A stretch of 64,000 bases of DNA from Tsuneonella dongtanensis (GTDB lineage: Bacteria; Pseudomonadota; Alphaproteobacteria; Sphingomonadales; Sphingomonadaceae): the NCBI RefSeq assembly GCF_001698205.1, contig NZ_CP016591.1, positions 2,232,001-2,296,000 on the forward strand, in the 5' to 3' direction. Position 1 is the stretch's first letter. Each line of letters starts with the position of its first letter. Under the pieces are notes generated by a model, which did no database searches, was not told the origin of the DNA, and worked only from the letters and a program-made list of their open reading frames with translations. Below are positions 4,971 to 25,386 of the stretch, in pieces. The position numbers and the translations under genes are program-made.

Positions 4971-6619
4971 GCCGCCTCTCCCGGAACGATGACACGCACC
5001 TGCGGGCGCTTGCCGCACCAGCGGCCCGCGGCCCGGCGGGCAGCGAGGCGCGCAGCCTCGACCAGCGAATCACGGTCACGCGCCGCTGGTCCGCGCAGCT
5101 TTCCGAGCGCTTGCGCCACGTCGGATTCGGCCTCCGCCACGAAGGCGGCGTAGTCCTCGTCGAGGGGCAGGCCGACCCCTTCGACGAAAATGCCGCCCTT
5201 GGCCCCGATCACCACGATCACGACGCCTTCGCGCGCGATGCGGCGGCGCATGACGATCGCGTCGCCATCGGCCGGTGCGATGATGTCGCCATCGAGCACG
5301 AGGCGACCGCTGCGGACTTCGGCGAGCTTGCCGGGTTTGCCGGGCGCGAGGCGGACGAGATCGCCGTTCTTCTGCACGACCACCTGGGGAATGCCGCTTG
5401 CCTTGCCCAGGCGCGCCTGCTCGGCCATGTGGCGCATCTCGCCGTGGACCGGCACGAGGATCTGCGGCCTGAGCCATCCATAAAGAGCTTCGAGCTCCGG
5501 TCGCCCGGGGTGGCCGGAAACGTGGATCATGCTCTGCCGGTCGGTCACCATCACGATCCCGCGTTCGGCGAGGAGGTTCTGGATGCGACCGATGGCGAGC
5601 TCGTTGCCGGGGATCTGGCGGCTGGAAAACAGAACGACGTCGCCCGAGGTGAGCTCGATGGGGTGCTGCTCCTCGGCTATGCGCGCGAGCGCCGCCCGCG
5701 GCTCGCCCTGCCCTCCGGTGGCGATGATCAGCACCTCGCCGCGCGGCAGGCCCATCGCGTTATCGAAATCCACCGTCTCGGGGAACTCCGCGAGATAGCC
5801 TGCGTCCTGTGCCACCTCGATGATGCGATCGAGCGAACGCCCTGCCACGCAAAGCTTACGTCCGGTCGCATCGGCGACCGCGCCGAGGGTGTGCAGGCGC
5901 GCGACGTTGCTGGCGAAAGTCGTCACCAGGACGCGGCGACCCGTCCACTTGGCGACCTCCTCGTGCAGCGCACGGTAGACTGCACCTTCCGAACCGCTCT
6001 CGGCGGGATTGAATACGTTGGTGGAATCGCAGACCAGCGCAAGGATACCCTCGTCGCCCAGTTCGCACAGCTCCTCCTCGGTCGTCGGCTCGCCGATGAT
6101 CGGTTCCTCGTCGAGCTTCCAATCGCCGGTATGAAAAACCCGGCCGTAAGGCGTCTCGATCAGCAAGGCGTGGCCCTCTGCGATCGAGTGCGCGAGCGGC
6201 ACATAGGAGATGCCGAAGGGACCGAGCTGGAACCGTTCGAGATCATCAACCACGACGAGTTCGACCGAATTGGCGATGCCCGCCTCTTCCAGCTTGCGCG
6301 TCACGAGATCGGCAGTGAACGGTGTCGCGTAAAGCGGCACGCCCAGCTCCGCGGCGAAGTAAGGAACCGCGCCGATGTGGTCCTCGTGCGCGTGGGTCAG
6401 GACGATTCCCTCGAGTGCGCCGGCGCGTTCCTCGATGAATTCGAGATCCGCGAAGACCAGGTCGACGCCCGGGTACTCGTTACCGCTGAAGGTCATCCCG
6501 AGGTCGACCATCAGCCAGCGGCCCTGGCAGCCATAGAGATTGACGTTCATGCCGATCTCGCCCGAGCCACCGAGCGCAAGGAACAGCAGTTCGTCCTCTG
6601 GTGCGAAGTCCCTTTTCAC
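4967..6619 (-). CDS. rnj: Ribonuclease J
   Basis: A 550-residue metallo-beta-lactamase/beta-CASP nuclease, the normal RNase J length. The zinc-binding HAHEDH motif is at residues 76-81, preceded by the [10 protein letters not shown]-terminal signature (17-25). Further motifs include the HTGDWK region, the beta-CASP segment with VTTFASN, and the late HVSGH and PVHGE motifs. RNase J enzymes degrade and process RNA by 5'-exonuclease and endonuclease action in the cytoplasm. The GTG start overlaps the coaX stop (GTGA), which fixes it over longer in-frame alternatives. Together with the RNase E gene in this window, it shows the cell carries both major RNA-degrading systems. Confidence 0.95.
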
Positions 6620-7392
6620 TTCGTTGCGCGCTCCGCCAGGATTGCCAGCCCGTCCAGCGTGAGATCGGTGTCGACGTGGTCGAAGATGTCGGTGTGTTCG
6701 TCGAACAGGATTGCCAGACCACCGGTGGCGACGACCTTGGCCGGACGGCCGATTTCCGCGCGCATTCGGGCGATCAGGCCCTCCATCATGGCGACATAAC
6801 CCCAGAAGACTCCGATCAGCATCTGGTCTTCGGTGTTGGTGCCAATGACGCTGTGCGATCGCGGCGCCTCGATCGCGATGCGCGGCAGCTTGGCCGTGTT
6901 GCCGACGAGGGCGTCCAGCGAGAGGTTGAGCCCCGGGCAGATGATCCCGCCCTTGTATGCACCGGTGAAGTCTACTGCGTCGAAGGTCGTCGCGGTGCCG
7001 AAGTCGACGACAATCAGGTCGCCTTCGTACTTGGCATGGGCGGCGATGGTGTTGAGGGCGCGGTCCGTGCCGAGCGACCGGGGCTGGTCGACGTCGACCG
7101 AAATGCCCCAGTCTGCCGCCCCTTCTCCCGCGATCAGCGGCGTCATGCCGAAGTACTTCTCGGCCAGGACGGTCAGGTTGTGGATCGCGCGCGGGACCAC
7201 CGATCCGACGATAAGCTGGGTGATATCCTCCCGCTTGAAACCCTCGATCTCGAGCAACTGGAGCAGCCATACGGCGTACTCGTCGCCGGTACGGCGGGGG
7301 TCGGTCGCGATGCGCCAGCGCGCGCGAATTTCGCGCCCGTCGAAAAGCGCGAAGACCACATTGGTGTTGCCGACATCGGCAGCGAGCAGCAT
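6616..7392 (-). CDS. coaX: Type III pantothenate kinase
   Basis: A 258-residue protein that phosphorylates pantothenate, the first step of coenzyme A synthesis. The ASKHA-fold nucleotide-binding signature DVGNTN is at residues 6-11. The pantothenate and phosphate regions are also visible: [18 protein letters not shown] and, near the C terminus, VVATGGLA. Type III enzymes are not feedback-inhibited by CoA, unlike CoaA. The start is the ATG of [11 protein letters not shown], 12 bases downstream of the birA stop. The stop overlaps the rnj start (GTGA). It is flanked by birA, so two cofactor genes sit between complex I and RNase J. Confidence 0.95.
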
Positions 7393-7403
7393 GGCGGTGT
7401 TCC

Positions 7404-8120
7404 TTACCCCAGCGAGACGTCGCCGGCGTGGATAGGCCGGGTTGTCCCGTCTTCCAAGCGCAGCAGCAGCGTACCGGTCTCGTCGAGACCGGCGAATGTG
7501 CCCGAAACCGTCGATCCGCCCGGTTCCTGCACCGTCAAAGACGCGCCGTGCCGGTGCGCGGCCGCCTGCCAGCGGCGCAGAAGCGGCGCAAGCCCCACGG
7601 TGCGCCACCGATCGAGTTCACGGTCGAAAGCGGTTGCCAGCGCCTCGGCGAATTGGTCGCGGTCGGGCGACGGGCCCAGAGTGGACAGGGCGATCGTCTC
7701 ACGTCCATCAACCTGCGGCGCGGCGGCCAGGTTGACCCCGATGCCGACCACGACCGCGTCACCTTCCCGCTCGAGCAGGATGCCGGCCAGCTTGGCCCGG
7801 CCGACAAGCAGATCGTTGGGCCACTTGAGCGACAGCGCGGATGGGTCGGCCAGCATGGGCGCGACCGTTTCATACAGCGCGACCCCGGCCAGCAATGCAA
7901 GCGTCGGTGCCGGCGGATCGTGCGGTCCGGGCCAGACGATGGTCGAGCCCATGAAATTGCCGCGACCGTCGAACCAGGTCCGCCCCTGCCGCCCTCGCCC
8001 GGCGGTCTGGCGGTCGGCGACGAGCCACTCGCCTTCGGCCACGCGTGCGCCGTCGCGGATCGCGGCGATGAGGTCGGCGTTGGTCGAGCCTGTCTCGGCG
8101 ACGAAGCGGATCGTTGCCAA
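7404..8120 (-). CDS. birA: Biotin--[acetyl-CoA carboxylase] ligase
   Basis: A 238-residue, group I biotin protein ligase without the N-terminal DNA-binding domain of E. coli BirA, so it is unlikely to repress biotin genes. Biotinyl-AMP-binding features are visible: GSTN near residue 11, the GRGRQGRTW loop near 41-49, and the KWPNDLL motif near 99-105. It attaches biotin to carboxyl carrier proteins such as AccB. It follows nuoN after only four bases and precedes coaX, so it should be transcribed with the complex I operon, as in many alphaproteobacteria. Confidence 0.94.
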
Positions 8121-8124
8121 TTAC

Positions 8125-9588
8125 TCAGGCGGCCAGGAACAGCGCGGCCGAAGCCTTGTCGGCCAGGCCGCCGAGCCATCCGGTCAGCAGGTAGCCGAGC
8201 GGCGAAATGAACACGGTGCTGACCACGAGCAGCGCCCAGTGCGCCCAGTCGTTGGGCCCCTTCACCTTGTCCGCCGGCTCGTCGAAGAACATGACCTTGC
8301 CGACCTTGAGGTAATAGAACGCGCCGATGACACTCGCGGCGATGGCAATCGTCGCGATGGCGATCATTCCGGCATCGACGGCGGCCTGGAACACGACCAG
8401 CTTGCCCCAGAAACCGAACAGCGGCGGGATACCGGCAAGGCTGAGCATGAGCAGCAGAAGGCACCATGCGATCGCCGGGCTGGTACGGCTGAGGCCGGCC
8501 ATGTCCGTGATCGATTCGACCTGGTTGCCGTCAGCGTCGCGCAGCATCAGCACCGCGACGAAGCTTCCGACCGACATCGCGACGTAGATCGCGAGATAGA
8601 CGAGCATTGCGCTCGCGCCCTCGGGTGTGGCTGCGGCAAGACCTACAAGGATGAAGCCGACGTTGTTGATCGATGAATAGGCGAGCAGGCGCTTGATGTT
8701 GTCCTGTCCGATCGCACCCAATGCACCGACGACGATCGAGGCCAGCGCGGCGAAGGTCACCACCTGGCGCCAGGCGTCGCTCTGGGCCCCGAACGCATCG
8801 AGAGATACGCGCATCAGCAGCGCGACGGCCGCGACCTTGGGAGCGGTCGCGAAGAACGTCGTCACCGGGGTCGGCGCGCCCTCGTAGACGTCGGGCGTCC
8901 ACATATGGAAGGGCACCGCGGCGATCTTGAAAGCAAGACCCGCGAGAACGAAGATCACCCCGAACAGCGCGCCGGTCGACATGCCGCTTTCCAGAACCGC
9001 GCGGATCCCCGCGAAGCTGGTCGTGCCGGTGAAGCCGTAAGTCAGGCTCATGCCGTAGAGCAGGATGCCGCTCGCGAGCGCACCCAGCACGAAGTACTTG
9101 AGGCCCGCCTCTTCCGAACGCGAATCCACACGCAGGAAAGCCGCAAGGACGTAGGCCGCGAGGCTGTTCATCTCGAGCCCGATGTAGAGCGTCATCAGGT
9201 CGCCGGCGGAGACCATGATGCTCATGCCGAGGACTGCGAAGACGATCAGCACGGGGTATTCAGCGCGCATCGCGTTCCAGCGGTCGAAGAACCGCGGGGC
9301 GATCATCAGGCTGGCGGCGCCGGCAGCGTAGATCAGCATCTTCGCGAATGCGGCGAACGCGTCGGCGCGCATCTGGCCGAAGAACGCCTCGGTCCCGGCG
9401 CCGGCGTTTCCGCCGCACAGGACCGGCGCGGTCAGGGCCGCGGCTGCAACGAGAACCGCGACCGATGCGATCGAGATCGCCTTGCTCGCCTTGTCGCCCA
9501 TCCACGCTGCGGCGAGCAGCAGGATGAGCCCGCCTACGCTGAGGAGGACCTCGGGCGCGACGAGGCGAAGGGACAGGGAATAGTCCAT
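8125..9588 (-). CDS. nuoN: NADH-quinone oxidoreductase subunit N
   Basis: A 487-residue, very hydrophobic subunit of the membrane arm of complex I, with about 14 helices and an antiporter-like fold. The conserved segments YIGLEMNSLAAYVL and HMWTPDVYEGAPTP carry residues of the proton channel, and KRLLAYSSINN is the second-half signature. It moves protons as NADH:quinone electron transfer proceeds. Its start codon shares a base with the nuoM stop (TGATG), so translation is probably coupled. Length and motifs are normal. Confidence 0.97.
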   Translation of the reverse strand: MDYSLSLRLVAPEVLLSVGGLILLLAAAWMGDKASKAISIASVAVLVAAAALTAPVLCGGNAGAGTEAFFGQMRADAFAAFAKMLIYAAGAASLMIAPRFFDRWNAMRAEYPVLIVFAVLGMSIMVSAGDLMTLYIGLEMNSLAAYVLAAFLRVDSRSEEAGLKYFVLGALASGILLYGMSLTYGFTGTTSFAGIRAVLESGMSTGALFGVIFVLAGLAFKIAAVPFHMWTPDVYEGAPTPVTTFFATAPKVAAVALLMRVSLDAFGAQSDAWRQVVTFAALASIVVGALGAIGQDNIKRLLAYSSINNVGFILVGLAAATPEGASAMLVYLAIYVAMSVGSFVAVLMLRDADGNQVESITDMAGLSRTSPAIAWCLLLLMLSLAGIPPLFGFWGKLVVFQAAVDAGMIAIATIAIAASVIGAFYYLKVGKVMFFDEPADKVKGPNDWAHWALLVVSTVFISPLGYLLTGWLGGLADKASAALFLAA

Positions 9589-11147
9589 CAGTGGCCCTCC
9601 CCTTCAGCCGCTTCATGGTGCGGCATCGCGTTCGCGGCTTTGGTCCGCACCTGTTCGGGCCGGGCTTCGGCGGGCTTGCTGTCCCCTTCGGGCGCGGCGC
9701 GCGAAAGGCGTGCGTCGAGGGCGGCGATGTCCTTGCGCATGGGTGCGAGGAAACTTTCGGGATAGACGCCCATCCACAGCACGGCGGCAGCGATCGGCGC
9801 GAGCATGGCCCATTCGCGGGCATTAAGGTCAGGCATGGCCGCGGCGTCGGCGTTCTTCTGCACGCCGAACGCAACGCGCCAGTAGAGATAGAGCATGTAG
9901 GCCGCACCCAGGATGATGCCCGTGGTGCAGACCAGCGTGACCCACGTCGACACCTGGTAGATGCCCGCAAGGCTCAGGAATTCGCCGACGAAGCCGCTGG
10001 TGCCGGGAAGCCCGATGCTGGCCATCGTGAACAGCATGAAGAACAGCGCGTAGTAGGGCATGTTGATCGAAAGGCCGCCGTAGCGGTCGATTTCGCGCGT
10101 GTGCAGCCTATCGTAGATGACGCCGACGCAGAGGAACAGCGCGCCCGATACCAGCCCGTGGCTCAGCATCACGATCATCGCGCCTTCCAGCCCCTGCACG
10201 TTGAAGGCGAACAGGCCCACCGTGACGATCGCCATGTGGGCGACCGAGGAATAGGCGATGAGCTTCTTCATGTCGTGCTGGACCAGCGCGATCAGGCTGG
10301 TGACGACCACGGCGATCATGCTGAGCGCAAAGATCAGCCAGGCAAGCTGCGCGCTCGCTTCGGGGAACATCGGCAGGCTGAACCGGATGAAGCCGTAGCC
10401 GCCCATCTTCAGCAGCACGCCCGCCAGGATCACCGAACCCGCGGTCGGCGCCTGGACGTGTGCGTCGGGCAGCCAGGTGTGCACCGGCCACATCGGCATC
10501 TTGACGGCGAAGCTCGCGAAGAACGCCAGCCACAGCCACGTCTGAGCCGCGGGGTCGAAGTCGTACTGCATCAGCGTCGGGATGTCCGTCGTCCCGGCTT
10601 CCCCGATCATCCACAGCATCGCGACCAGCATCACGACCGAGCCGAGCAGCGTGTAGAGGAAGAACTTGTAGCTCGCGTAGATGCGGTCCTTGCCGCCCCA
10701 GATGCCGATGATGAGGTACATCGGGATCAGGCCGGCTTCGAAGAAGATGTAGAACAGCAGCAGGTCCTGCGCGGCGAACACGCCGATCATCAGCAGTTCC
10801 ATGAACAGGAACGCCGCCATGTATTCGCCGACGCGCTTCTCGATCGATTCCCAGCTGGCGAGGATGCAGATCGGCATCAGGAATACGCTGAGCACGATCA
10901 ACAGCAGCGCGATGCCGTCTATCCCGAGCGCATAGCTGAAGCCCGCGAACAGCTCGGCCCGTTCTGTGAACTGCCATTGCGCGCCGCCGATATCGTAATT
11001 CACCCAGAGCAGTATGCCGAGAGCGAGGTTCGCCAGCGTGGCAATCAGCGCGACCATGCGCGCGGCCTTCGCTTCGAGGAAGAAGCAAGCGAGCCCCGCC
11101 ACGAGCGGCACGAGGAGCATCAGCGAAAGGATCGGAAAGCCCCCCAT
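9588..11147 (-). CDS. nuoM: NADH-quinone oxidoreductase subunit M
   Basis: A 519-residue antiporter-like subunit of the complex I membrane arm. The channel glutamate region ([26 protein letters not shown]), [17 protein letters not shown], and the lysine/histidine segment [12 protein letters not shown] are all present. The start is the ATG of [10 protein letters not shown], which shares one base with the nuoL stop (TGATG); a longer in-frame start exists but would overlap nuoL by about 50 bases. The C-terminal 40 residues after the last helix are charged and variable, as is common in NuoM. Confidence 0.97.
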
Positions 11148-14615: not shown

Positions 14616-15658
14616 CCGTACCTCGTGAACATGAGCCAGCCCGACGTAAGGACCACGAACAGCAGCGAGATCGGCAGGAACACCTTCCATCCGAGCCGCA
14701 TGAGCTGGTCGTAGCGGTACCGCGGCACGGTCGCCTTGATCCACGCAAAGATGAAGAACATCAGCGCGATCTTGAGCAGCAGCCAGACGAACCCCGGGAT
14801 CACGTAGAGGAATTCCAGCTCTAGCGGCGGGAGCCAGCCTCCGAAGAACAGCACGGCGTTCAGCGTGCACATCAGCAGCACGTTGGCGTATTCGCCGAGC
14901 CAGTAGAGCGCGAAGCTCATCGAGCTGTATTCGGTCTGGTATCCGGCGACGAGCTCGCTCTCAGCCTCGGTCAGGTCGAACGGCGCGCGCGCCGTTTCGG
15001 CAAGGCTGCTGATCAGGAACATGACCCACATCGGAAACAGCAGCAGGTTGAACACGTAGCCGTTGACGATCCCCAGCCCGTGACCGCGCTGCGCCTCGAC
15101 AATGGCGTTCATGTTGAACGAGTTGGCGTAGAGCACCACGCAGATCAGGATGAAGCCGATCGAGACCTCGTACGAGATCATCTGCGCCGCGGCACGCATC
15201 GCGGAGAAGAAAGGGTACTTCGAGTTCGACGCCCACCCGGCGATCACCACGCCGTAGACGCCGAGGCTGCTGATCGCGAGGACGTAGAGCAGGCCGACGT
15301 TGATATCCGCCAGCACCGCGCCCGAATTGAACGGGATCACCGCCCACGCCATCAGCGCGACGGTGAAGGTGATGATCGGCGCGATCAGGAACAGGCCCTT
15401 GTTCGCGGCCGAGGGGATGATGGTTTCCTGCAGGAATACCTTGAGGCCGTCCGCGAAGGACTGGAGAACGCCCCACGGCCCCACCACGTTCGGCCCCCGC
15501 CGCAGCGCGAACGCCGCCCACAGCTTGCGTTCGACGTAGATAATGATCGCCACCGCCAGCATCAGCGGCAGCGCGATGAGCAAGATGCCGCTGAGGGTGG
15601 CGAGGAACCACGACCACTCATAGGTCAGTCCGAGATTGGTCTGGAAGAACTCGGTCAT
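14612..15658 (-). CDS. nuoH: NADH-quinone oxidoreductase subunit H
   Basis: A 348-residue subunit with eight helices that forms the quinone chamber at the junction of the two arms. Conserved features include [17 protein letters not shown] (residues about 41-57), the loop [20 protein letters not shown], the acidic funnel segment [17 protein letters not shown], and the C-terminal [13 protein letters not shown]. Normal length. It overlaps nuoG by ATGA at its start and nuoI by ATGA at its end. Confidence 0.97.
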
Positions 15659-17646
15659 TCCGCGGCCTCCCGCACGTCATCGCCATGCAGCAATTCGGCC
15701 GAGCATTCCTGCATCACCACGCTCGCGCGGGCGATGGGGTTGGTGAGGTAGAAGTCCTTGATCGGATAGGCGATCGCGCCGCTCGCCTTGCCCTTCCCGG
15801 CTTTCGGCAGCGCGCCGTAATCGGCCAGACCCTCGACGCCCAGCGCCGGCACTTCGGTGATCATCGCGGCCTGGAGCTCGGCGAAGCTGTCGAACCCGAC
15901 GGTGACGCCCAGCGCATCGGCCAGCGCGCGCAGGATCGTCCAGTCCTCGCGCGCGTCGCCCGGGGCGAACACGGCCTTCTCGGCGAACTGCACCCGCCCC
16001 TCGGTGTTGACGTAGGTCCCGTCCTTTTCGCTGTAGGCGGCGGCGGGGAGGATGATGTCCGCCGCGTGCGCGCCCTTGTCGCCGTGGTGGCCGATGTAGA
16101 CCTTCAGGCTATCGGCGAACGCGGACCAGTCGACTTCGTCCGCACCCAATGCCAGCACCACCTTGGGCGCGGCCTTGGCGATGTCGGCGATGCCGCCCTT
16201 CTGCGCGTAACCGAGCATCAGCCCGCCCATGCGCGAAGCCGCCATGTGGAGCACGTTGAACCCGTTCCACCCGTCACGCTGGACTGGCAGCGCCAGCGCA
16301 GCATCGAGCGCGCCCTTGGCCAGCCCCGCCCCGCCGACGATCACCGCGGGCCGCTCGGCCTTGGCAAGCGCCTCGGTCACATGCCCCGGCAGGTCGTGCA
16401 GCAGCGCCGCGTCGTCACCGAGGAATTCGGCCGGATAGGTCGTGTCCCAGCGGGGGCCGACGACGAAGACCTTCGCCCCGCGCTTGGCCGCCTTGCGCAG
16501 CCGCACGTTGACCAGCGGCGCTTCCCAGCGGACCATGCTGCCGACGATCAGAATCGCATCCGCGGTCTCGATTCCCGCGAAGGTCGAATTGAAGTTGACC
16601 GCCGCGAGATTGCCGGTGGGATAGCTCATCCCGGTCTGGCGTCCCTCGAGCAGGGTCGAGCCGAGCGCATTCACCAGCCTCTTTGCCGCGAACATCGTCT
16701 CGCAATCGACCAGGTCGCCCGCGATGGCCGCTATGCTGGCCCCCGGCTTGGCCTTGGCGATCGCCTTGAACGCCTCGTCCCAGCTCGCGGCCTGCAGCTT
16801 GCCCTTGCTGCGGATCCACACCTTGTCGAGGCGGCGACGGGTCAGACCGTCGACCATGTAGCGGCCCTTGTCGCTGAGCCATTCCTCGTTGACGTCGTCG
16901 TTGTTGCGCGGAAGCGCGCGCATGACCTCGCGCCCGCGGCTGTCGAGGCGGATGTTCGCGCCGACCGCGTCGCTGACGTCGATCGACAGCGTCTTCTTGA
17001 GCTCCCACGGCCGCGCCTCGAACGCATAGGGACGCGAGGTGAGCGCACCGACCGGGCACAGGTCGATCACGTTCGCCGAAAGCTCGTGCTTGCACGCCTC
17101 TTCGAGATAGGTCGTAATCTGCATCTGCTCGCCGCGATAGAGCGCGCCGATTTCGTCCACGCCCGCGATCTCTTCGGAGAATCGCACGCAGCGGGTGCAG
17201 TGGATGCAGCGGGTCATCACCGTCTTGATGAGCGGGCCCATGTATTTCTCGGTCACCGCGCGCTTGTTCTCGTCGTAGCGCGAGGCTCCGCGGCCGTAGG
17301 CGACCGACTGGTCCTGCAGGTCGCACTCGCCGCCCTGGTCGCAGATCGGGCAATCGAGCGGGTGGTTGATGAGGAGGAACTCCATCACCCCTTCGCGCGC
17401 CAGCTTGACCATCTCGCTGTCGGTGCGGATTTCCTGGCCTTCTGTAGCCGGCAACGCACACGACGCCTGCGGCTTGGGCGGCCCGGGCTTCACCTCGACC
17501 AGGCACATGCGGCAGTTGCCCGCGATCGAAAGCCGCTCGTGATAGCAGAAGCGCGGGATTTCCTTCCCCGCAAGCTCGCACGCCTGCAGGACGGTCGCCC
17601 CATCGGGGACCTCGATCTGCTCGCCGTCTACGGTGACCTTGGGCAT
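15655..17646 (-). CDS. nuoG: NADH-quinone oxidoreductase subunit G
   Basis: A 663-residue iron-sulfur subunit of the NADH arm. The N-terminal 2Fe-2S domain (about 1-80) has Cys ligands in [16 protein letters not shown]. The His/Cys cluster N5 motif ([18 protein letters not shown]) and the 4Fe-4S pairs CIHCTRC and the later CPVGALT follow. After that comes the molybdopterin-oxidoreductase-like domain, without cofactor function. Unlike its neighbours, the start is not coupled to an upstream gene. It has its own AAAGG ribosome site seven bases before the ATG and follows a 122-base gap. A decayed copy of its first 22 codons sits 2.5 kb upstream, so this locus has been rearranged. Confidence 0.97.
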
Positions 17647-17768
17647 TGCTACCTTTTATCGAAGGCGCGATCGCGCTGGTCGGCGCGACCGGATTCCGGA
17701 CGGGGAGCGCACGCCGCGCCCCGGGTTCAGGGGGGCACTTAGAAAACCACCTTGCGAGAGTAAATGGT
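17647..17768 (-). promoter_or_regulatory. Non-coding gap upstream of nuoG, possible secondary promoter
   Basis: This 122-base gap separates the nitroreductase stop from nuoG and is the largest within the nuo part of the operon. Read on the minus strand, it has TTTACT, 17 bases, then TAAGTG, which is a weak -35/-10-like pair, and an AAAGG Shine-Dalgarno sequence just before nuoG. A local promoter would restore expression of nuoG-N behind the inserted genes. This is inference; the match to a sigma-70 promoter is poor. Confidence 0.25.
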
Positions 17769-18734
17769 TCAATTGCCCAGCCAGCGAATTGGCACGCTTT
17801 CGCGGGGACTGGCGGCTACCTTGAACGTGTCCGGCGTCGGCCCGAACCCGATCATGGTGATGACGTGAACCGAATCCTCAAGCGCGAAACGGCGGCGCAA
17901 TGCGTTGTCATCGTGATAGCCCATGCTCCAGTTCAGCATGCAACCACCCAGCCCTTCGGCCTGCAGCGCTTGCAACAGGGCCATTGCAAAGATGCCGCCG
18001 TCCACGAAAGCCTGCTGCCGCTCGCCCACGTGATTGAAACGGGTCACGTCTGCAACGACAATGAAAAGGCCGCCGATCAGGTGGCCGAACCCCGCATTGC
18101 CATTCTGGTACGACAGCGCGGCATCGATCGTCTCCCGGTCGTTGCAGGCGTAAACCTTGCCCGACTGGCGGTTGCATACCGAAGGGCAGCGCTGCGCAAT
18201 CCGCACGACGCGCTCGATCTGTTCACGGGGCACCAGTTCTCCCGTGAAATGCCGGACGCTGCGACGCGCCTGCAGGAAGCGGACGGCATCTTCGCGCGGT
18301 ATGGGAAAGAGATCGTCTCGCGTCAGCTGGACGGAACCGGCCCGGCGATCGGGGTCGAGGGCCACCGGATCCTGGCCCAGAATTCGTTCGACTTCGTCGA
18401 CGGCTATCCCGTCGCGCGCCATTTCGAAGCGGTATTCCCGCAACACGTCGCGGACGACAAGTGTCACGTCGTCGTGGCCGTACGCGTCCTCGTACGCGCG
18501 CAGCTTGGTCACGAGGCTGGTCGCGACATCACGCCCGAAGCCGGCCCGACGGTCCGGCATGGACAGCCCTTTTTCCAGCTTGTGGTAGACAAAAGTCAGG
18601 CGGGCGCGAAGCTGGCTGCGCAGGTGAGGCTCGCGGACCGCCGACGACCATTTGTAGAAACGATACGTGTCGCGAACGGCGTTGTACGATAAGGCGAAAA
18701 TGCCCTTGAGATGGCGCGCGATACGTTTCAGCAT
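17769..18734 (-). CDS. Nitroreductase family protein (polysaccharide-locus type)
   Basis: A 321-residue protein. The C-terminal two thirds (from about residue 140) are nitroreductase-like: RRSVRHFTGELVPREQIERV is the FMN-phosphate-binding start, with CPSVCNRQSGKVY after it and GLGGCMLNWSMGY near residue 265. The N-terminal 130 residues are helical and basic (YHKLEKGLSMPDRR). Longer nitroreductases of this kind occur beside polysaccharide pyruvyl transferases in exopolysaccharide loci; the redox step they perform is not known to me. It follows the pyruvyl transferase on the same strand and, like it, looks foreign to the complex I operon. Its ATG start is well placed. Confidence 0.8.
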   Translation of the reverse strand: MLKRIARHLKGIFALSYNAVRDTYRFYKWSSAVREPHLRSQLRARLTFVYHKLEKGLSMPDRRAGFGRDVATSLVTKLRAYEDAYGHDDVTLVVRDVLREYRFEMARDGIAVDEVERILGQDPVALDPDRRAGSVQLTRDDLFPIPREDAVRFLQARRSVRHFTGELVPREQIERVVRIAQRCPSVCNRQSGKVYACNDRETIDAALSYQNGNAGFGHLIGGLFIVVADVTRFNHVGERQQAFVDGGIFAMALLQALQAEGLGGCMLNWSMGYHDDNALRRRFALEDSVHVITMIGFGPTPDTFKVAASPRESVPIRWLGN

Positions 18735-18890
18735 CCCGCGTTCGCCTCAGCCTGGATCGCGTTTCCCGCCAACCTCATCATTTCACTCTCCAGAGGTCCC
18801 CGGCCGGTACGCGGTTGGGGACGGAAGCCCGTGCTCCTGCGCATAACCCGTCGCTCTGCGTGACCTGCTCGAAGGAGACGGATTCCCATG

Positions 18891-19991
18891 TCAGGCGAGA
18901 GCATTCGCCAGGAACTCGGTTGCGTCCGCACGCAACTCCTCGAGACGCGCGCGGACGGCGACATAATCGATAGGCTGTTTCATGAGCTCGGCAACCTTGC
19001 CGATGTCCGCGTGCTCGACGAGCCGATCTTCCAGTCCCAGCAACCCGAGAACGTTGACGAAGCGATCTTCTCCGCCCCTCTTGTTCGCCAGGCTCACAAA
19101 GGGCTTCTCGTTCAAGATCGACAGGGCAGTACCGTGGAAGCTGTCGGTGAAGACGTACTTCGCCGCACGGAAATACCCCACCCAGTCGTTGATGGTGATA
19201 TCGTCCCCTCCCAAACTGAGGCGCAGGAACTTCGTGCGGCTGACGCCCGGCAGCTCGGCGCCGAGCCTCGTCAGGTCTTCGATGGACGTATCGTTCAGCC
19301 CCAGGATGTAGTTCAGGAAGGTTCCCTCCGCGTCGGAAGGGACCGTGGCGATGTCGTCATAGAAAGCCCGGTCCACGAGCATCGCGGGGTCGATCATGAC
19401 CTTCGCATCGTCGTACGCGAAGTGGCGCGCACAAATCTCGATACCGCTCGCCTCGCGAACCGAGACCGCGTGGAAATCGGCCAGCAGGGGGGCGATCCGC
19501 CCATCGAGATCGGGCCGCTCCCAGACTGCCTTGCCGAAGGACGCAGCATAGGCGATGCGCTTGCTGCGGCGCGGATCGACGAAGTTCAGCCAGTAGGCCA
19601 GCGGTGTTTGGTCCCCATGATATTCGGGGCGCCAGACCTGGTCGCTACCGACGATCACCGCGTCCAGATCATGTTCCGAGACGGCCTTCCGCAAGTCGGA
19701 AACGGTCCGCAGCGGACGGGACCGCACCGACATGTTGTTCTGGATGAAGGGCCGATGCTTGCCCGACCTCCGGGCCATGGTGCGGAACCCCTTGATGTCG
19801 AGAAACGGCAGGTTCTCGGCGATCAGCCGCGCCAGTTGCTTGTGCGGCTTCCGGTCGCGGCGCCGTTCCAGGAATACCGGCTGATGCCCCTGGTCCGACA
19901 GCACACGATACAGCGCGGCCGCCTGCAGGATGCCCCCGTAATTCACATAGAGCGGCAAAGTCAGGATGCCGACTTTTCGGGGAACCGTCAC
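18891..19991 (-). CDS. Polysaccharide pyruvyl transferase family protein
   Basis: A 366-residue protein of the CsaB/WcaK-like family, whose members add pyruvate ketals from phosphoenolpyruvate to sugars of surface polysaccharides. Family hallmarks are visible: NYGGILQAAALYRVL near residue 17, GSDQVWRPEY near residue 120, SVREASG near 180, and the C-terminal DSFHGTALSILNEKPFV near 290-307. There is no signal peptide or membrane segment, so it should be cytoplasmic. The start is GTG, with a GAGGGA ribosome site upstream. It sits between the genes following nuoF and nuoG, an odd place for a glycan-modifying gene, and is probably co-transcribed with the nitroreductase. Confidence 0.88.
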   Translation of the reverse strand: MTVPRKVGILTLPLYVNYGGILQAAALYRVLSDQGHQPVFLERRRDRKPHKQLARLIAENLPFLDIKGFRTMARRSGKHRPFIQNNMSVRSRPLRTVSDLRKAVSEHDLDAVIVGSDQVWRPEYHGDQTPLAYWLNFVDPRRSKRIAYAASFGKAVWERPDLDGRIAPLLADFHAVSVREASGIEICARHFAYDDAKVMIDPAMLVDRAFYDDIATVPSDAEGTFLNYILGLNDTSIEDLTRLGAELPGVSRTKFLRLSLGGDDITINDWVGYFRAAKYVFTDSFHGTALSILNEKPFVSLANKRGGEDRFVNVLGLLGLEDRLVEHADIGKVAELMKQPIDYVAVRARLEELRADATEFLANALA

Positions 19992-20158
19992 TGCCTTAAT
20001 TCCCTCACACGATTGCGCATCTTGCCGCGGCTTGGCGGGCGGATGCGCACCGCCGCGCGGACCATAGCCGTGGCCTGGTCAATCCGCCTTCTGGAGCGGG
20101 CCGTTCACGCGCAGGAGCGCTTCCGCAAGCCGGACGCGGATGGTGCTCGGCCCGATCG
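19992..20158. other. Non-coding gap between the nuoG remnant and the pyruvyl transferase gene
   Basis: About 167 bases with no credible gene. I could not recognise further nuoG sequence beyond the remnant, nor an insertion-sequence end or terminator. A promoter for the pyruvyl transferase is likely here if the gene is not read from nuoA, but no convincing -35/-10 pair is visible. Confidence 0.4.
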
Positions 20159-20236
20159 TCAACGCCCGCGCGCCTGCAGCACGGATCCCCCGGTGCGAAC
20201 TTCGATTTCCCGACCGCCTACGGTAGCCTTGGGCAT
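20159..20236 (-). pseudogene. nuoG: Decayed duplicate of the nuoG 5' end (25 codons, then stop)
   Basis: The peptide MPKATVGGREIEVRTGGS followed by VLQARGR and a stop matches the nuoG start ([18 protein letters not shown], then VLQAC): 14 of the first 22 residues are identical. Over 65 bases from the ATG, 47 positions are identical to the intact gene by my count, in the same orientation. Its ATG shares a base with the stop of the preceding gene (TGATG), the coupling style of the rest of the operon. This suggests that the original nuoG began here. Homology ends abruptly after codon 22. It marks the left end of a rearrangement that placed two glycan genes ahead of the intact nuoG. Confidence 0.82.
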
Positions 20237-20931
20237 CAGGAGGACTTGCTGCTTTCCACGGAACGGAACGCGGCCGTGGCGAGCATCGCCCGCAACCCGG
20301 CCGGATTGATCGACAGCGGCTTGCTCGCTTCCGCCGCCTTGGCGCAAAGACCCATGATCGCGGAGACTTTTTGCAGGGCCGCATTTTCCTCGGCACTGTC
20401 GCGTGCAGTTGCGAACAGGTCGGCGACGTCGTTGGGCGCCGAGCGCACAGTGCAGATCGCGACCTTGTCGGTGAACGAGAACGACGGTGTCGCCGGGCCC
20501 GCCGCGGCGCGCGCCAGCCGTGCGACCGGAGCCTCGCCCGGCTGCTCGAGCAGGGCTTCCGCCATCTCGCCCGCGAACAGCAGTCCGCCCGCGCGCAGTG
20601 TGCCGCGGAAGCGGATGCAGTCCTTGCTTTCCTGCGACAGCATCTGCATCGCCCGGCCATATGCCGGCGCCTTGAAATCGATAGTCAGGACGCGTGTGGC
20701 CTCGCCAGCGTGCGAACGCGCGATGCATCCCGCCCACTGCTCCAGCGCCACGCGCGACACCCTATCGTTGGCGCGCGCGTCCATGCGGTCATGCTCGGCG
20801 CGCTCGAGGGTTTTTTCGACCGACACGTCGTTGCGCGCGGCGATGTCGTCGCGGTCGTTCTCGTTCGACGACTGCGCGAGCGCCGGGCCGGCAAGCATAA
20901 GCGCGGCGGAAAATATCAGGAGGCGATTCAC
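20236..20931 (-). CDS. Secreted protein of unknown function, paralogue 2 in the nuo operon
   Basis: A 231-residue protein starting with GTG in a GTGA overlap with the gene before it. A signal peptide is clear (LLIFSAALMLAGPALAQ, cleavage near residue 19). The mature part has four or five scattered cysteines (WAGCIARS, SKDCIRF, ICTVRS, GLCAKA) that could form disulfides. It resembles the upstream 192-residue protein: both have a Cys-containing helix, then YRRAM/YGRAM...C, then a C-terminal segment LR(A/G)(M/L)(L/V)A with similar ending. The family is unknown to me. It is probably periplasmic, and its position suggests transcription with complex I rather than a proven role in it. Confidence 0.78.
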   Translation of the reverse strand: MNRLLIFSAALMLAGPALAQSSNENDRDDIAARNDVSVEKTLERAEHDRMDARANDRVSRVALEQWAGCIARSHAGEATRVLTIDFKAPAYGRAMQMLSQESKDCIRFRGTLRAGGLLFAGEMAEALLEQPGEAPVARLARAAAGPATPSFSFTDKVAICTVRSAPNDVADLFATARDSAEENAALQKVSAIMGLCAKAAEASKPLSINPAGLRAMLATAAFRSVESSKSS

Positions 20932-21506
20932 GGCGTGTTCCCATAAGTCCGCAGGGTTGCGAGCGCGACGAGGCCGCGAAGCTGGGCTGCAGTGATCCGG
21001 ATGGAATCCTTCGCCGCGCACGGCTTCAGGGTCGCGCTCAGATCAAAGGCTGCATCGCGCTCGTCGTCGCTGAGCCATTTGGTGGCGAGCAGCGCCTCCG
21101 ACTTCGCCTTGTCGGCGCGGACCGCGCAATCGGCCATCGCCAGCGCCGGGTCGGCGGGATTGGCCGACGCAACCAGCGAACCGAGACCGGCCGGGACGCC
21201 ATCCTTGATCGCCAGTTCGGCCAGGGCGCCAGAGAGCAGAAGCGGCTCGAAAGTCGCCATGTCCGGATCTTCGACGCAGCCGCTCCACTTGACCAGCTTG
21301 GTCATCGCGCGACGATATTCGGGCGAACCGATCGTCAGGCCGAGCAGTTTCTGCGCCTTCACAGGGTCCTTGGCCGCAATGCACTGGGCGAAGTCGCGCG
21401 TTTCCACGCGCAGGTCTTCGGTCACGTCGCTCGCATACTGCGCCGACGCGGGCGCGGCACTTACCGCCGCCGCCACCAATGCCAGGATCGACAGTCGATT
21501 GATCAT
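20928..21506 (-). CDS. Secreted protein of unknown function, paralogue 1 in the nuo operon
   Basis: A 192-residue protein with a signal peptide (ILALVAAAVSAAPASAQ, cleavage near residue 22). The mature region has conserved-looking cysteines in FAQCIAAKDP, WSGCVEDP, MADCAVRA and LKPCAAKD and ends LRGLVALATLRTYGNTP. It shares this layout with the next gene, so the two are likely an old tandem duplication. It begins 20 bases after nuoF. No enzyme motif is visible. It is probably periplasmic. Its job, if any, in complex I assembly or respiration is unknown. Confidence 0.8.
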   Translation of the reverse strand: MINRLSILALVAAAVSAAPASAQYASDVTEDLRVETRDFAQCIAAKDPVKAQKLLGLTIGSPEYRRAMTKLVKWSGCVEDPDMATFEPLLLSGALAELAIKDGVPAGLGSLVASANPADPALAMADCAVRADKAKSEALLATKWLSDDERDAAFDLSATLKPCAAKDSIRITAAQLRGLVALATLRTYGNTP

Positions 21507-21525: not shown

Positions 21526-22815
21526 TTACTCAGCCGCTTCGGCCATGTTGCCGGCCTCGGCGATACGCCGTTCGATTTCGGGCCGGAAGTGCTTGATCAG
21601 GCCCTGGATCGGCCAGGCTGCGGCGTCGCCCAGCGCGCAGATGGTGTGGCCCTCGACCTGCTTGGTGACCTGCTGGAGCATGTCGATTTCCTCGACGTGC
21701 GCGTCGCCGGTGCGCAGGCGCTCCATCACCCGCCACATCCAGCCCACGCCTTCGCGGCACGGGGTGCACTGGCCGCAGCTCTCGTGCTTGTAGAAATAGC
21801 TGATGCGGCTGATCGCGCGGACGATGTCGGTGGACTTGTCCATCACGATCGCCGCCGCCGTGCCGAGGCCGCTGCCGACTTCCTTCAGCCCGTCGAAGTC
21901 CATCGGGCAGTCCCAGATCTGGTCCGCCGGGACCAGCGGGACCGAGGAGCCGCCGGGGATCACCGCCAGCAGGTTGTCGCGCCCGCCGATGATGCCGCCG
22001 CAGTGCTTCTCGATCAGCTCGCCGAAAGGGATGCTCATCGCTTCCTCGACGACGCAGGGCTTGTTCACGTGCCCGCTGATCTGGAACAGCTTGGTGCCAG
22101 CGTTGTTGGGGCGCCCGAAGCTCGCGAACCACGAAGCGCCGCGCCGCAGGATCGTCGGGACAACCGCGATCGACTCGACGTTGTTGACCGTCGTCGGACA
22201 ACCGTAGAGCCCCGCGCCGGCCGGGAACGGCGGCTTGAGGCGCGGCTGGCCCTTCTTGCCTTCGAGGCTTTCGATCATCGCGGTCTCTTCGCCGCAGATG
22301 TAGGCGCCTGCGCCGCGGTGGACGAACACGTCGAAATCGTAACCCGACCCGGCCGCGTTCTTGCCCAGCAGCCCCGCGTCATAGGCCTCGGCGACCGCCT
22401 TGAAGAGCGTCTCGGCCTCGCGGATGAACTCGCCGCGGATGTAGATGTAGGCGGCGCGCGCGCGCATGGCGTAGCCGGCGATCAGTGCGCCTTCGATCAG
22501 CTTGTGCGGATCGTGGCGGATGATCTCGCGGTCCTTGCACGAACCGGGCTCGGATTCGTCGGCGTTGATGACGAGGAAGCTCGGCCGGCCATCCTTGCTC
22601 TCCTTCGGCATGAACGACCACTTCATGCCGGTCGGGAAGCCCGCGCCGCCGCGCCCGCGCAGGCCGGACGCCTTGATCTCGTCGATGATCGCGTCCTGGC
22701 CGACGCCCATCAGCGCCTTGGTATTGTCCCAGTCGCCGCGATGCTGCGCCGCCTTCAGGCCCCAGTCCTGGTAGCCGTAAAGGTTGGTGAAGATGCGGTC
22801 CTTGTCAGCGAGCAT
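21526..22815 (-). CDS. nuoF: NADH-quinone oxidoreductase subunit F
   Basis: A 429-residue flavoprotein that oxidises NADH with FMN and passes electrons to cluster N3. The NADH/FMN-binding segment [16 protein letters not shown] is at about residues 50-65, [19 protein letters not shown] at about 177-195, and the 4Fe-4S ligands are in [11 protein letters not shown] with the distant CALGDAAAW. The start overlaps the end of the small membrane protein gene by 11 bases. Normal length and order (E before F). Confidence 0.97.
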
Positions 22816-23148: not shown

Positions 23149-23810
23149 TCACCCCGATAGTCGTGGTTCTCGCCGACCATCGCGGTCAGGCTGCTGAGCG
23201 CGCCGACCGGCTCCACCGTGTGCCGCTCGGGGTCCTGCGTGCCTTCCTTGGGCGTCTCGCCGCGTTCGAGCGCATCGAGCACCGCGTCGAGGCGTTCGGG
23301 GGTCAGGTCCTCGTAGTTCGCGTCGTTGATCTGGACCATCGGGGCGCTGGCGCAGTTGCCCATGCATTCGACCTCGGTCAGCGTCCACAGACCGTCGTCA
23401 GTGGTGTGGCCTTTGCTCATCCCGCGCTTCTTGCACGCGGCCATGATGTCGTCCGATCCGCGCAGCATGCACGGCGTGGTGCCGCAGACCTGCACGTGGA
23501 AGCGGCCGACCGGCGCGATGTTGTACATCGTGTAGAACGTCGCGACCTCGAGCACGCGGATCACCGGCATGTCGAGTTCGCGGGCGACGAATTCCATCAC
23601 CGGCAGCGGCAGCCAGCCCTGCGTGCTCGTCTCCGCGCCGACCTGCCGCTGGGCGAGGTCGAGCAGCGGCATCACCGCCGAGCGCTGGCGTCCCTCGGGA
23701 TAGCGCGCGAGGATCTCCTTCGCCTTGTCCGCATTCTCGGCGGTCCAGGCGAACGAACCCCACCGCTCGCGCAGTTCGGGCGTATCGGGGGCGGGTGCGC
23801 GGTCAGCCAT
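23142..23810 (-). CDS. nuoE: NADH-quinone oxidoreductase subunit E
   Basis: A 222-residue thioredoxin-like subunit with the 2Fe-2S cluster N1a. Ligands are in VCGTTPCMLRG (about residues 106-116) and ECMGNCASAPM (about 146-156). The C-terminal 45 residues (GETPKEGTQDPERHTVEP...) form an extension typical of alphaproteobacterial NuoE. The ATG shares a base with the cupin gene stop (TGATG). It helps NuoF feed electrons from NADH into the iron-sulfur chain. Confidence 0.96.
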   Translation of the reverse strand: MADRAPAPDTPELRERWGSFAWTAENADKAKEILARYPEGRQRSAVMPLLDLAQRQVGAETSTQGWLPLPVMEFVARELDMPVIRVLEVATFYTMYNIAPVGRFHVQVCGTTPCMLRGSDDIMAACKKRGMSKGHTTDDGLWTLTEVECMGNCASAPMVQINDANYEDLTPERLDAVLDALERGETPKEGTQDPERHTVEPVGALSSLTAMVGENHDYRGEW

Positions 23811-24178
23811 CAGATAGCTTCCAGTTTTGCACGGGTAAGGACTGACGGGTGGGATCCGGTATTGGGCTCGCCTTCACGGTCCATAAGCATGACATGGCAT
23901 TCGCCATCGGCGAAAGGTTGGTGTTCGACTCCCTTGGGGACGACGAGAAACTCGCCCGGTCCCAACACCCGCACCCCATTGCGAAACCTGATCCCAAGTT
24001 CGCCCGATACGACAAGGAACAACTCGTCGGTATCGGCATGGCTATGCCAGGTGAAATCGCCCTGCAGCTTGACCACGCGGATTTCGTTTCCGTTGTAGTT
24101 GCCGATAATCCGCGGATTATAATGATCGGAAAACTGAGCAAGCTTATCCGCAAGCGATACAGGTTCGCAGAAGGTCAC
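23810..24178 (-). CDS. Cupin-domain protein embedded in the nuo operon
   Basis: A 122-residue single cupin barrel. Motif 1 reads [18 protein letters not shown] (about residues 44-61), with two His and a Glu able to hold a metal ion. Motif 2 reads [19 protein letters not shown] (about 72-90), with the second metal-site His. I chose the GTG that overlaps the nuoD stop (GTGA); another in-frame GTG nine bases upstream is possible. Cupins of this simple form can be isomerases, dioxygenases or sensors, so no substrate can be named. The position between nuoD and nuoE is unusual relative to the E. coli layout. Confidence 0.85.
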
Positions 24179-25386
24179 CGGTCGCACTCCCCGAACACCA
24201 CGTCGATCGCGCCGAGGATGGCGGTTGCGTCGGGGAGCATGTGGCCCTTGGACATGAAGTCCATCGCCTGCAGGTGGCTGAACGCGGTCGGGCGGATCTT
24301 ACAGCGGTAGGGTTTGTTCGACCCGTCCGACACGAGGTAGACCCCAAACTCGCCTTTGGGACTCTCGGTCGCCACGTAGACTTCGCCAGCGGGGACATGG
24401 AAGCCTTCGGTGTAGAGCTTGAAGTGGTGGATCAGCGCTTCCATCGACTGCTTCATTTCGGCGCGCTTGGGCGGGACCACCTTGCGGTCGTCGCTCGCGA
24501 TCGGGCCTTCGGGCATCTCGGCGAGGCACTGCTTCATGATGCGCGCGGACTGGCGCACTTCCTCGACCCGGACCATGAACCGATCGTAGCAATCGCCGCG
24601 CGTGCCGACGGGGATTTCGAAGTCCATGCGGTCGTAGACGTCGTAGGGCTGGCTCTTGCGCAGGTCCCACGGCACGCCCGCGGCGCGGATCATCGGGCCC
24701 GAGAAGCCCCAGGCGACCGCGTCGTCCTTGCTCACCACGGCGATGTCGACGTTGCGCTGCTTGAAGATGCGGTTATCGACGACGAGCTTCAGGCCGTCCT
24801 CGAACAGCGGGATCAGCCGCGTGTCGATCCAGTCGGCGAGGTCGACGAGCAGCTTGACCGGCACGTCCTGGTGCACGCCGCCGGGCCGGAACCAGGCCAT
24901 GTGCATCCGCGCGCCGCTGACGCGCTCGAAGAAGTTGAGGCAATCCTCGCGCGCTTCGTAGAGCCACAGACCCGGGGTCAGCGCGCCGACGTCGAGGATG
25001 TGGTGCGCCATGTTGAGCAGGTGGTTCGAGATGCGCGTCAGCTCGGCGAACAGCACCCTGAGGTACTGGGCGCGCAGCGGCACCTCGATGTTCAGCAGCT
25101 TTTCGAGCGCCAGCACATAGGAGTGCTCCATCGCCAGCGGCGACGCGTAGTCGAGCCGGTCGAAATAGGGCAGAGCCTGCAGGTAGGTTTTGTGCTCGAT
25201 CAGCTTCTCGGTGCCGCGGTGGAGCAGCCCGATATGCGGATCGATCCGCTCGATGATCTCGCCGTCGAGCTCCATCACCATGCGCAGCACGCCGTGTGCC
25301 GCGGGGTGCTGGGGTCCGAAGTTGATGGTGTAGTTGGTGATGACCTCGTCGCCGGTGGTCGGCGACTGTTCGAGTTGCATCGTCAT
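24175..25386 (-). CDS. nuoD: NADH-quinone oxidoreductase subunit D
   Basis: A 403-residue, 49-kDa-type subunit that forms the quinone-binding site with Nuo[14 protein letters not shown] near residue 22 contains the quinone-site histidine, and [19 protein letters not shown] and the C-terminal DVVFGECDR (the hydrogenase-derived Asp/Arg end) are all present. The chosen ATG (MTMQLEQ) overlaps the lipoprotein stop (ATGA); the ATG two codons later is an alternative. It is not fused to nuoC here. Confidence 0.97.

Follow-up and report, generated by a model that had tools for sequence, protein, structure and literature searches.

The complex I operon of Tsuneonella dongtanensis was examined in a stretch of 64,000 nucleotides (contig NZ_CP016591.1, positions 2,232,001 to 2,296,000, hereafter the window), where two genes, for a polysaccharide pyruvyl transferase and a nitroreductase, lie between nuoF and nuoG and interrupt it. 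A 25-codon fragment resembling the start of nuoG lies ahead of this pair and the intact nuoG lies behind it, which raises the question of how the start of one gene came to be present twice with unrelated genes in between. The comparisons described here indicate that a one-sided recombination anchored in nuoG probably placed the new cargo behind the old nuoG start, together with a second start that is complete. The initial annotation of this DNA took the old nuoG start to be the piece left behind as a scar, and in this it had read the direction of the event correctly.

The nuoG 5' remnant

The fragment was aligned with the 5' end of the intact nuoG, for which no second copy was found in the genome. 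Without gaps 48 of 66 bases were identical, while 10,000 dinucleotide shuffles of the fragment gave at most 36/66 (mean 20.1), and the local alignment score was 52 compared to a maximum of 40 over 2,000 shuffles. A blind repeat search of 17500-20400 returned the same pair as the longest direct repeat, with a length of 73 bases, 73% identity and starts 2,590 bases apart. A profile of 130 nuoG starts matched the fragment over bases 1-70 with an E of 1e-8. The initial annotation had reported 47 of 65 identical bases and 14 of 22 identical residues with the nuoG N terminus, the latter confirmed here by eye, and had named a score no better than random as the finding that would speak against it; with no shuffle above 36/66 the resemblance is real.

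The complex I genes are arranged on the minus strand in the order nuoD-nuoE-nuoF, a gap of 3,879 bases, nuoG, and then nuoH through nuoN (subunit names from Pfam). The gap contains two paralogous genes, the nuoG-like fragment, the transferase and nitroreductase genes and a 122-base leader. This is the order given by the initial annotation, as borne out by the reading frames and Pfam, and the TGATG overlap that it described between the second paralogue and the fragment is present in the sequence. The features are as follows, in the direction of reading.

21526..22815, minus strand: nuoF, complex I 51 kDa subunit (Pfam Complex1_51K 4e-48, NADH_4Fe-4S 7e-32)
20928..21506, minus strand: paralogue 1, a member of the slot family described below, predicted secreted-type with four conserved cysteines (slot-family profile E 2.6e-38)
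20236..20928, minus strand: paralogue 2, slot-family member (slot-family profile E 4.4e-51), its stop overlapping the ATG of the remnant (TGATG)
20157..20236, minus strand: remnant of the ancestral nuoG 5' end, bases 1 to ~70-80 with frameshift indels (alignment, shuffles and start profile)
19992..20156, minus strand: left junction DNA between the remnant and the transferase gene
18891..19991, minus strand: polysaccharide pyruvyl transferase family gene, inserted (Pfam PF04230, PS_pyruv_trans, 8e-31)
17769..18734, minus strand: nitroreductase family gene with an N-terminal extension, inserted (Pfam PF00881, Nitroreductase, 3e-17)
17647..17768, minus strand: leader of 122 bases with a Shine-Dalgarno-like AAAGG (by eye) before nuoG
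15655..17646, minus strand: intact nuoG (Pfam Fer2_4, NADH-G_4Fe-4S_3, Molybdopterin)

The two paralogues share 30% identity (E 3e-9), and paralogue 1 gave no match in Pfam or NCBIfam searches. Positions 19950-20175, which span the left junction DNA, matched only themselves in the genome, and a 28-residue frame from 19992-20156 had no match among plasmids. An assembly artefact was considered and dropped, the genome being a single contig scored as 100% complete and analogous scars being present in two other genomes.

A gapped alignment extended the similarity of the fragment to about base 80 through indels, and because one of these is a one-base frameshift the 25-codon frame is taken as a decaying piece and not as a kept gene. 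Beyond base ~70-80 the similarity to nuoG stops and unrelated DNA begins, giving a non-homologous junction on that side. The fragment differs from the intact copy at 21 positions over 75 bases; in a set of 12 sequences, 11 of these 21 differences occur in the fragment alone, each of them at the first or second position of a codon. This pattern fits a loss of coding constraint, but as third-position changes are masked by variation among relatives it is no stand-alone test. It bears on the idea that the 25-codon piece is functional, either as a leader peptide or as a translational coupler that passes ribosomes from paralogue 2 to the inserted genes. The start codon and the TGATG overlap have been retained, and in the two other genomes with a scar (G139 and G188, below) the nuoG start continues in frame into a downstream gene, for which it may provide the start. 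In the window, however, the frame ends at 25 codons and contains frameshifts, its unique changes are confined to the first two codon positions, and the next gene begins 167 bases beyond its stop, so that such a function is hardly credible.

Comparison with congeneric genomes

The ancestral arrangement was examined in ten congeneric genomes, in which the nuoF product is 87-98% identical in amino acid sequence to that of the window. None of the ten has a transferase or nitroreductase gene between nuoF and nuoG, and their nuoF-nuoG gaps range from -1 to 832 bases. In four of them (G010, G005, G007 and G008; loci L013, L014, L015 and L019) a homologue of paralogue 2 fills the gap and its stop overlaps the nuoG ATG as TGATG, the closest examined being that of G005, which is 79% identical to paralogue 2 over 173 residues. 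Across the four genomes these homologues are 47-79% identical to paralogue 2, compared to 92-98% for NuoF of the same genomes. Since the congeneric homologues and paralogue 2 share the same TGATG overlap, the comparison shows that nuoG of the window lineage once began at 20236, the position that had been proposed as the ancestral start on first inspection.

Survey of the nuoF-nuoG gap and scars in other genera

The two genes were surveyed in 149 and then in 318 genomes of the family Sphingomonadaceae, the pairs in the larger set being taken among the matches listed for both genes. Within the set of 149, nuoG was found in 143 genomes, and eight of these (G017, G074, G030, G050, G115, G133, G047 and G151) were omitted because the genes were on different contigs, a match was partial or nuoF was not found. 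This left 135 usable gaps, with lengths calculated by hand from the nuoF and nuoG match coordinates. The gap was no longer than 60 bases in 49 genomes, 61-149 in 8, 150-999 in 57, 1,000-1,999 in 15 and at least 2,000 in 6. Gaps of at least 150 bases were therefore present in 78 of the 135 genomes, and that of the window was the longest. The nuoF-nuoG junction thus reads as a recurrent insertion slot in the Sphingomonadaceae; its main occupant is a protein family, here called the slot family, that includes both paralogues of the window. Two loci, L188 (G266) and L101 (G072), have gaps with other small frames outside the slot family, representing other cargo in the same slot. A literature search, in which most subscription papers were not covered, gave no report of an insertion slot between nuoF and nuoG, the one passage inspected on the two genes dealing with the protein interface in Escherichia coli; nor did searches on the glycan pair or on hotspots in operons give any paper.

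Scars were searched for in 131 loci from 131 genomes, of which 127 had at least 60 bases and were tested and four were shorter. Exactly three of the 127 gaps contained a nuoG 5' scar, a count that gives no rate for the family as the loci had mainly been picked for having a gap. They are locus L192 (G188), the window and locus L103 (G139), in three genera. Compared with the nuoG start of their own genome the three scars gave z values of 19, 12 and 10 (next 3.6), and against the profile of 130 starts E values of 7e-9, 1e-8 and 8e-6 (next 0.96). A protein profile placed the same three at the top, although weakly (E 0.002, 0.015 and 0.075; next 0.62). Each of the three starts at the ATG of nuoG, with the profile match running to base 74, 70 and 62, respectively.

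In G139 the scar is overlapped by the stop of nuoF (TAATG) and continues in frame into a slot-family gene, the stop of which in turn overlaps the intact nuoG. The scar of G188 is preceded by a slot-family gene that runs into it, and it is fused in frame within a 99-residue frame; this frame has a hydrophobic segment (by eye) and itself extends into the intact nuoG. The part of this frame after the scar has a homologue of 48% identity (67 residues, E 9e-15) in G130, a genome of the same genus, and because that homologue sits between nuoF and nuoG the G188 locus gives the impression that one slot content was put in after the nuoG start belonging to another. The layout of the window is the same, with a glycan-type pair as the cargo.

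The narrow range of the scar ends is suggestive, with the restriction that it comes from three cases of decayed sequence. Many islands that integrate through a tyrosine recombinase rebuild the end of their target gene, and a small element that used the nuoG 5' end as its target and reconstituted it on the other side of the insert would account for scars ending at bases 62-74 in three genera, for the restored end of the target gene and for the 73-base direct repeat that flanks the insert. Pfam searches, however, revealed no integrase among the minus-strand genes or in the four long plus-strand frames of the gap, the two copies of the repeat are only 73% identical, and the cargo differs from case to case. 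Site-specific integration is accordingly considered very unlikely. If the junctions instead arose by the one-sided recombination proposed here, only those falling inside nuoG would leave a visible scar, and other exchanges at the slot may have left none.

Origin of the insertion

The proposed route would begin from the order nuoF, paralogue(s) and nuoG starting at 20236 in the window lineage. The incoming fragment would have carried the two cargo genes, transferase and nitroreductase, and attached to them a nuoG start that was complete and had its own leader. On the right side it would have been incorporated by homologous recombination within nuoG, while its left end would have been attached, with no homology involved, somewhere within bases 1 to ~70-80 of the resident nuoG. 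Complex I would be retained only by those recombinants in which a full nuoG had been restored, and the old start would be left as a dead, drifting remnant. The continuity of intact nuoG, nuoH and nuoI is the same as in the congeners, which provides the homologous flank on the side of the anchor gene. Such a product could be attained either by homology-facilitated illegitimate recombination (HFIR) of linear DNA or by a single crossover of a circularised fragment.

Both processes have been described in other bacteria. In one report, HFIR has one homologous and one illegitimate side, inserts DNA beside a conserved anchor and is known from three naturally competent species (PMC3240628). The window likewise has one homologous flank, one non-homologous junction and a conserved anchor. 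In that account HFIR is generally an insertion with a deletion of similar size at 3-10 bp of microhomology (PMC3240628), whereas the window keeps the old nuoG start as a remnant and its junction is too decayed to be read. The same source describes conjugation experiments at lacZ of Escherichia coli, where 56 of 60 clones pointed to a single crossover of circularised linear DNA with partial duplication of the target end, the duplicated part of the target gene beside the insert measuring 109-950 bp in 14 sequenced clones (PMC3240628). This is the layout of the window, a partial target-gene duplication beside an insert, but the lacZ event was a laboratory one and the duplicated piece in the window is old and only ~60-80 bases long. 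A third parallel is offered by the type VI effector modules of Vibrio cholerae, where a fixed locus gains modules by a proposed HFIR-like route and displaced pieces remain (PMC5361080). The fixed locus, the anchor in conserved sequence and the leftover pieces are common to both; the cargo in V. cholerae consists of effector-immunity modules, whereas here a respiratory operon has received unrelated cargo and the leftover is a piece of the anchor gene itself.

A tandem duplication within the genome, in which slippage or unequal exchange first doubled the nuoG start and the glycan genes later came to lie between the copies, would give the same final order and a remnant beginning exactly at the nuoG start. 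The sequence relationships of the remnant were used to compare this with the recombination route. The remnant matches its own intact start at 48/66 bases and the start of G005 at 52/66, the best within the genus, and in both the window and G188 the own intact copy is a poorer match to the remnant than nuoG starts from other genomes are. A remnant no closer to its own copy than to the starts of other genomes weakens a recent tandem duplication without proving a donor. A copy of the paralogue region was also looked for in the 122-base leader. One 30-base gapped match inside paralogue 1 was found, but it is weak and equalled by 13 of 500 dinucleotide shuffles and was rejected, and the leader does not contain a copy of the end of paralogue 2 (score 17 over the last 130 bases). 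The in-frame scar fusions in G188 and G139, moreover, require a junction with other DNA in any case. Tandem duplication is therefore regarded as unlikely. In the initial annotation recombination had been put forward with either a second nuoG copy brought in with the glycan genes or a duplicated nuoG start; the view that recombination set new genes behind the old start, and with them a nuoG start that is complete, is supported and has two analogues in other genera, while the intact start may be either a donor copy or a duplicate.

Several observations weigh against the one-sided recombination. The left junction is too decayed to reveal microhomology, with no donor for comparison, and identity along the intact nuoG shows no clear step and no clear donor tract. 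The G139 remnant has its own nuoG tied for best match over 38 bases and within 0.02 of the best over 60, and there a duplication may have taken place. In the wider set the best match of the window remnant is G023 (0.84 over 69 bases) and not the congener G005 (0.78), and a tree of the 75-base starts groups the remnant with G005 at a support of 53, too low to be used alone. The search for a donor in genome contigs gave no close relative of the transferase or the nitroreductase, and in the three other family genomes that have a nitroreductase relative at E 1e-30 the relative lies far from nuoG by coordinates (G486 left out). The GC content at third codon positions of the inserted pair is 76-81%, compared to 87-92% in eleven nuo genes, which speaks for the proposed route, but that of the paralogues is also low (79-83%), and composition alone cannot mark the pair as foreign.

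The inserted gene pair

The transferase is a full-length match to PF04230 (108 bits against a cut-off of 25.3, positions 1-279 of 280) and had no NCBIfam match. The nitroreductase matches PF00881 with 63.6 bits against a cut-off of 23.5 over two stretches, of which the best spans positions 2-52 of 167, and it falls below every listed NCBIfam cut-off, so that no specific function or equivalog can be assigned. Both genes are absent from the other 126 of the 127 gaps. Relatives are rare in the family. At E 1e-30, 4 of 298 family genomes contained a relative of the nitroreductase, and at E 1e-35 this was so for 3 of 396; a relative of the transferase was found in 10 of 298 at E 1e-12, the T. dongtanensis genome being included in each count. 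Homologues of both are present in G154 within one glycan-type cluster, with one acetyltransferase-like frame between them (names read from the frames). Nitroreductase relatives also occur in 36 plasmid records, 24 of which are from Rhizobium, with 36-38% identity among the 20 listed; in the one record inspected, whose gene table is incomplete, no pyruvyl transferase was listed beside the nitroreductase. At locus L038 (G288), positions 5813-9646, a nitroreductase relative lies near frames resembling a sulfotransferase and a tyrosine-recombinase integrase (named by eye), a possible mobile context.

The pair probably modifies surface polysaccharide. Three PF02397 sugar-transferase genes are present elsewhere in the genome, and these would represent polysaccharide pathways on which the pair could act.

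The slot protein family

An iterated profile built from the two window paralogues detected 123 frames in 92 of the 131 loci, and none of 1,154 reversed or shuffled decoys. The cysteines C68, C104, C159 and C195 are invariant in 30 aligned members, and 120 of the 123 members have at least four cysteines. An N-terminal hydrophobic segment, assigned by a crude hydrophobicity rule, is likewise present in 120 of 123, and the family is predicted to be of a secreted type. Loci contain one to four copies, with up to four in tandem (e.g. G016, L080). Of the 121 members outside the window 76 have their start only a few bases from the stop of nuoF and 50 have their end at the start of nuoG, counts that are approximate because starts were set at the first possible start codon of the mechanical frame.

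When 40 whole genomes were searched, 19 strong matches (E below 1e-20) were obtained in 13 genomes, and 17 of these lie between nuoF and nuoG by coordinates. One clear copy, G023:C43:277337-278005, is on a contig other than that of nuoF-nuoG, and one strong match is on a contig of G022, a genome in which neither nuo gene was found. Two partial, weak matches lie elsewhere (G007 and G018; E 7e-4 and 9e-4), and the match in G003 contains one stop codon. None of 16 genomes from other families of the order has a match. None of 30 members matched Pfam. In NCBIfam two matches were obtained, each for a single member (E 0.001 and 0.0035), and among solved structures three chains were hit with a best E of 0.1; neither result was usable. 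A predicted structure of paralogue 2, calculated from a two-row alignment, had a mean predicted local distance difference test score of 49 and was not used.

The wider point is that the scar appears to belong to a recurrent slot of the complex I operon that has its own secreted-type protein family. It is tentatively suggested that the junction might be a dedicated exchange slot of the Sphingomonadaceae. In it an undescribed, fast-evolving, secreted four-cysteine family would be almost exclusive to the slot and often coupled to the translation of nuoF and nuoG. Genes of this family and occasional foreign cargo would be exchanged there, the nuoG start moving with them, and time and again a nuoG 5' scar of ~60-80 bases would remain.

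Transcription and significance

The transferase, nitroreductase and nuo genes are collinear on the minus strand. Simple scans of that strand detected no terminator-like site between the nitroreductase gene and nuoG and no sigma-70-like site in 17400-20400, and one weak terminator-like site of 5 pairs lies inside the transferase gene. Because the genes are collinear and no terminator-like site before nuoG or sigma-70-like site was found, it is possible that the inserted pair is co-transcribed with the complex I operon.

Complex I operons are generally regarded as core genes in a strict order, and here one junction is a repeatedly used insertion slot. The slot probably places its protein family under respiratory-chain expression, and the presence of a glycan-modifying pair suggests that the operon serves as a ready-made expression platform. 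Since the scars can be read, the order of events can be told, that is, which content came second, and gene gain in a core respiratory operon becomes datable and testable.

Other junctions of the operon

The nuoD-nuoE gap of the window measures 364 bases compared to -1 to 192 in the congeners, and contains a 125-codon gene with a cupin domain (23810-24187; Pfam E 2e-11), which had no match across the ten congeneric stretches compared. This gene represents a second insertion, so that more than one junction of the complex I operon in the window takes in genes. The nuoG-nuoH gap is 223 and 274 bases in L045 (G002) and L050 (G006), and these two genes overlap by 4 bases in the other eight congeners and in the window.

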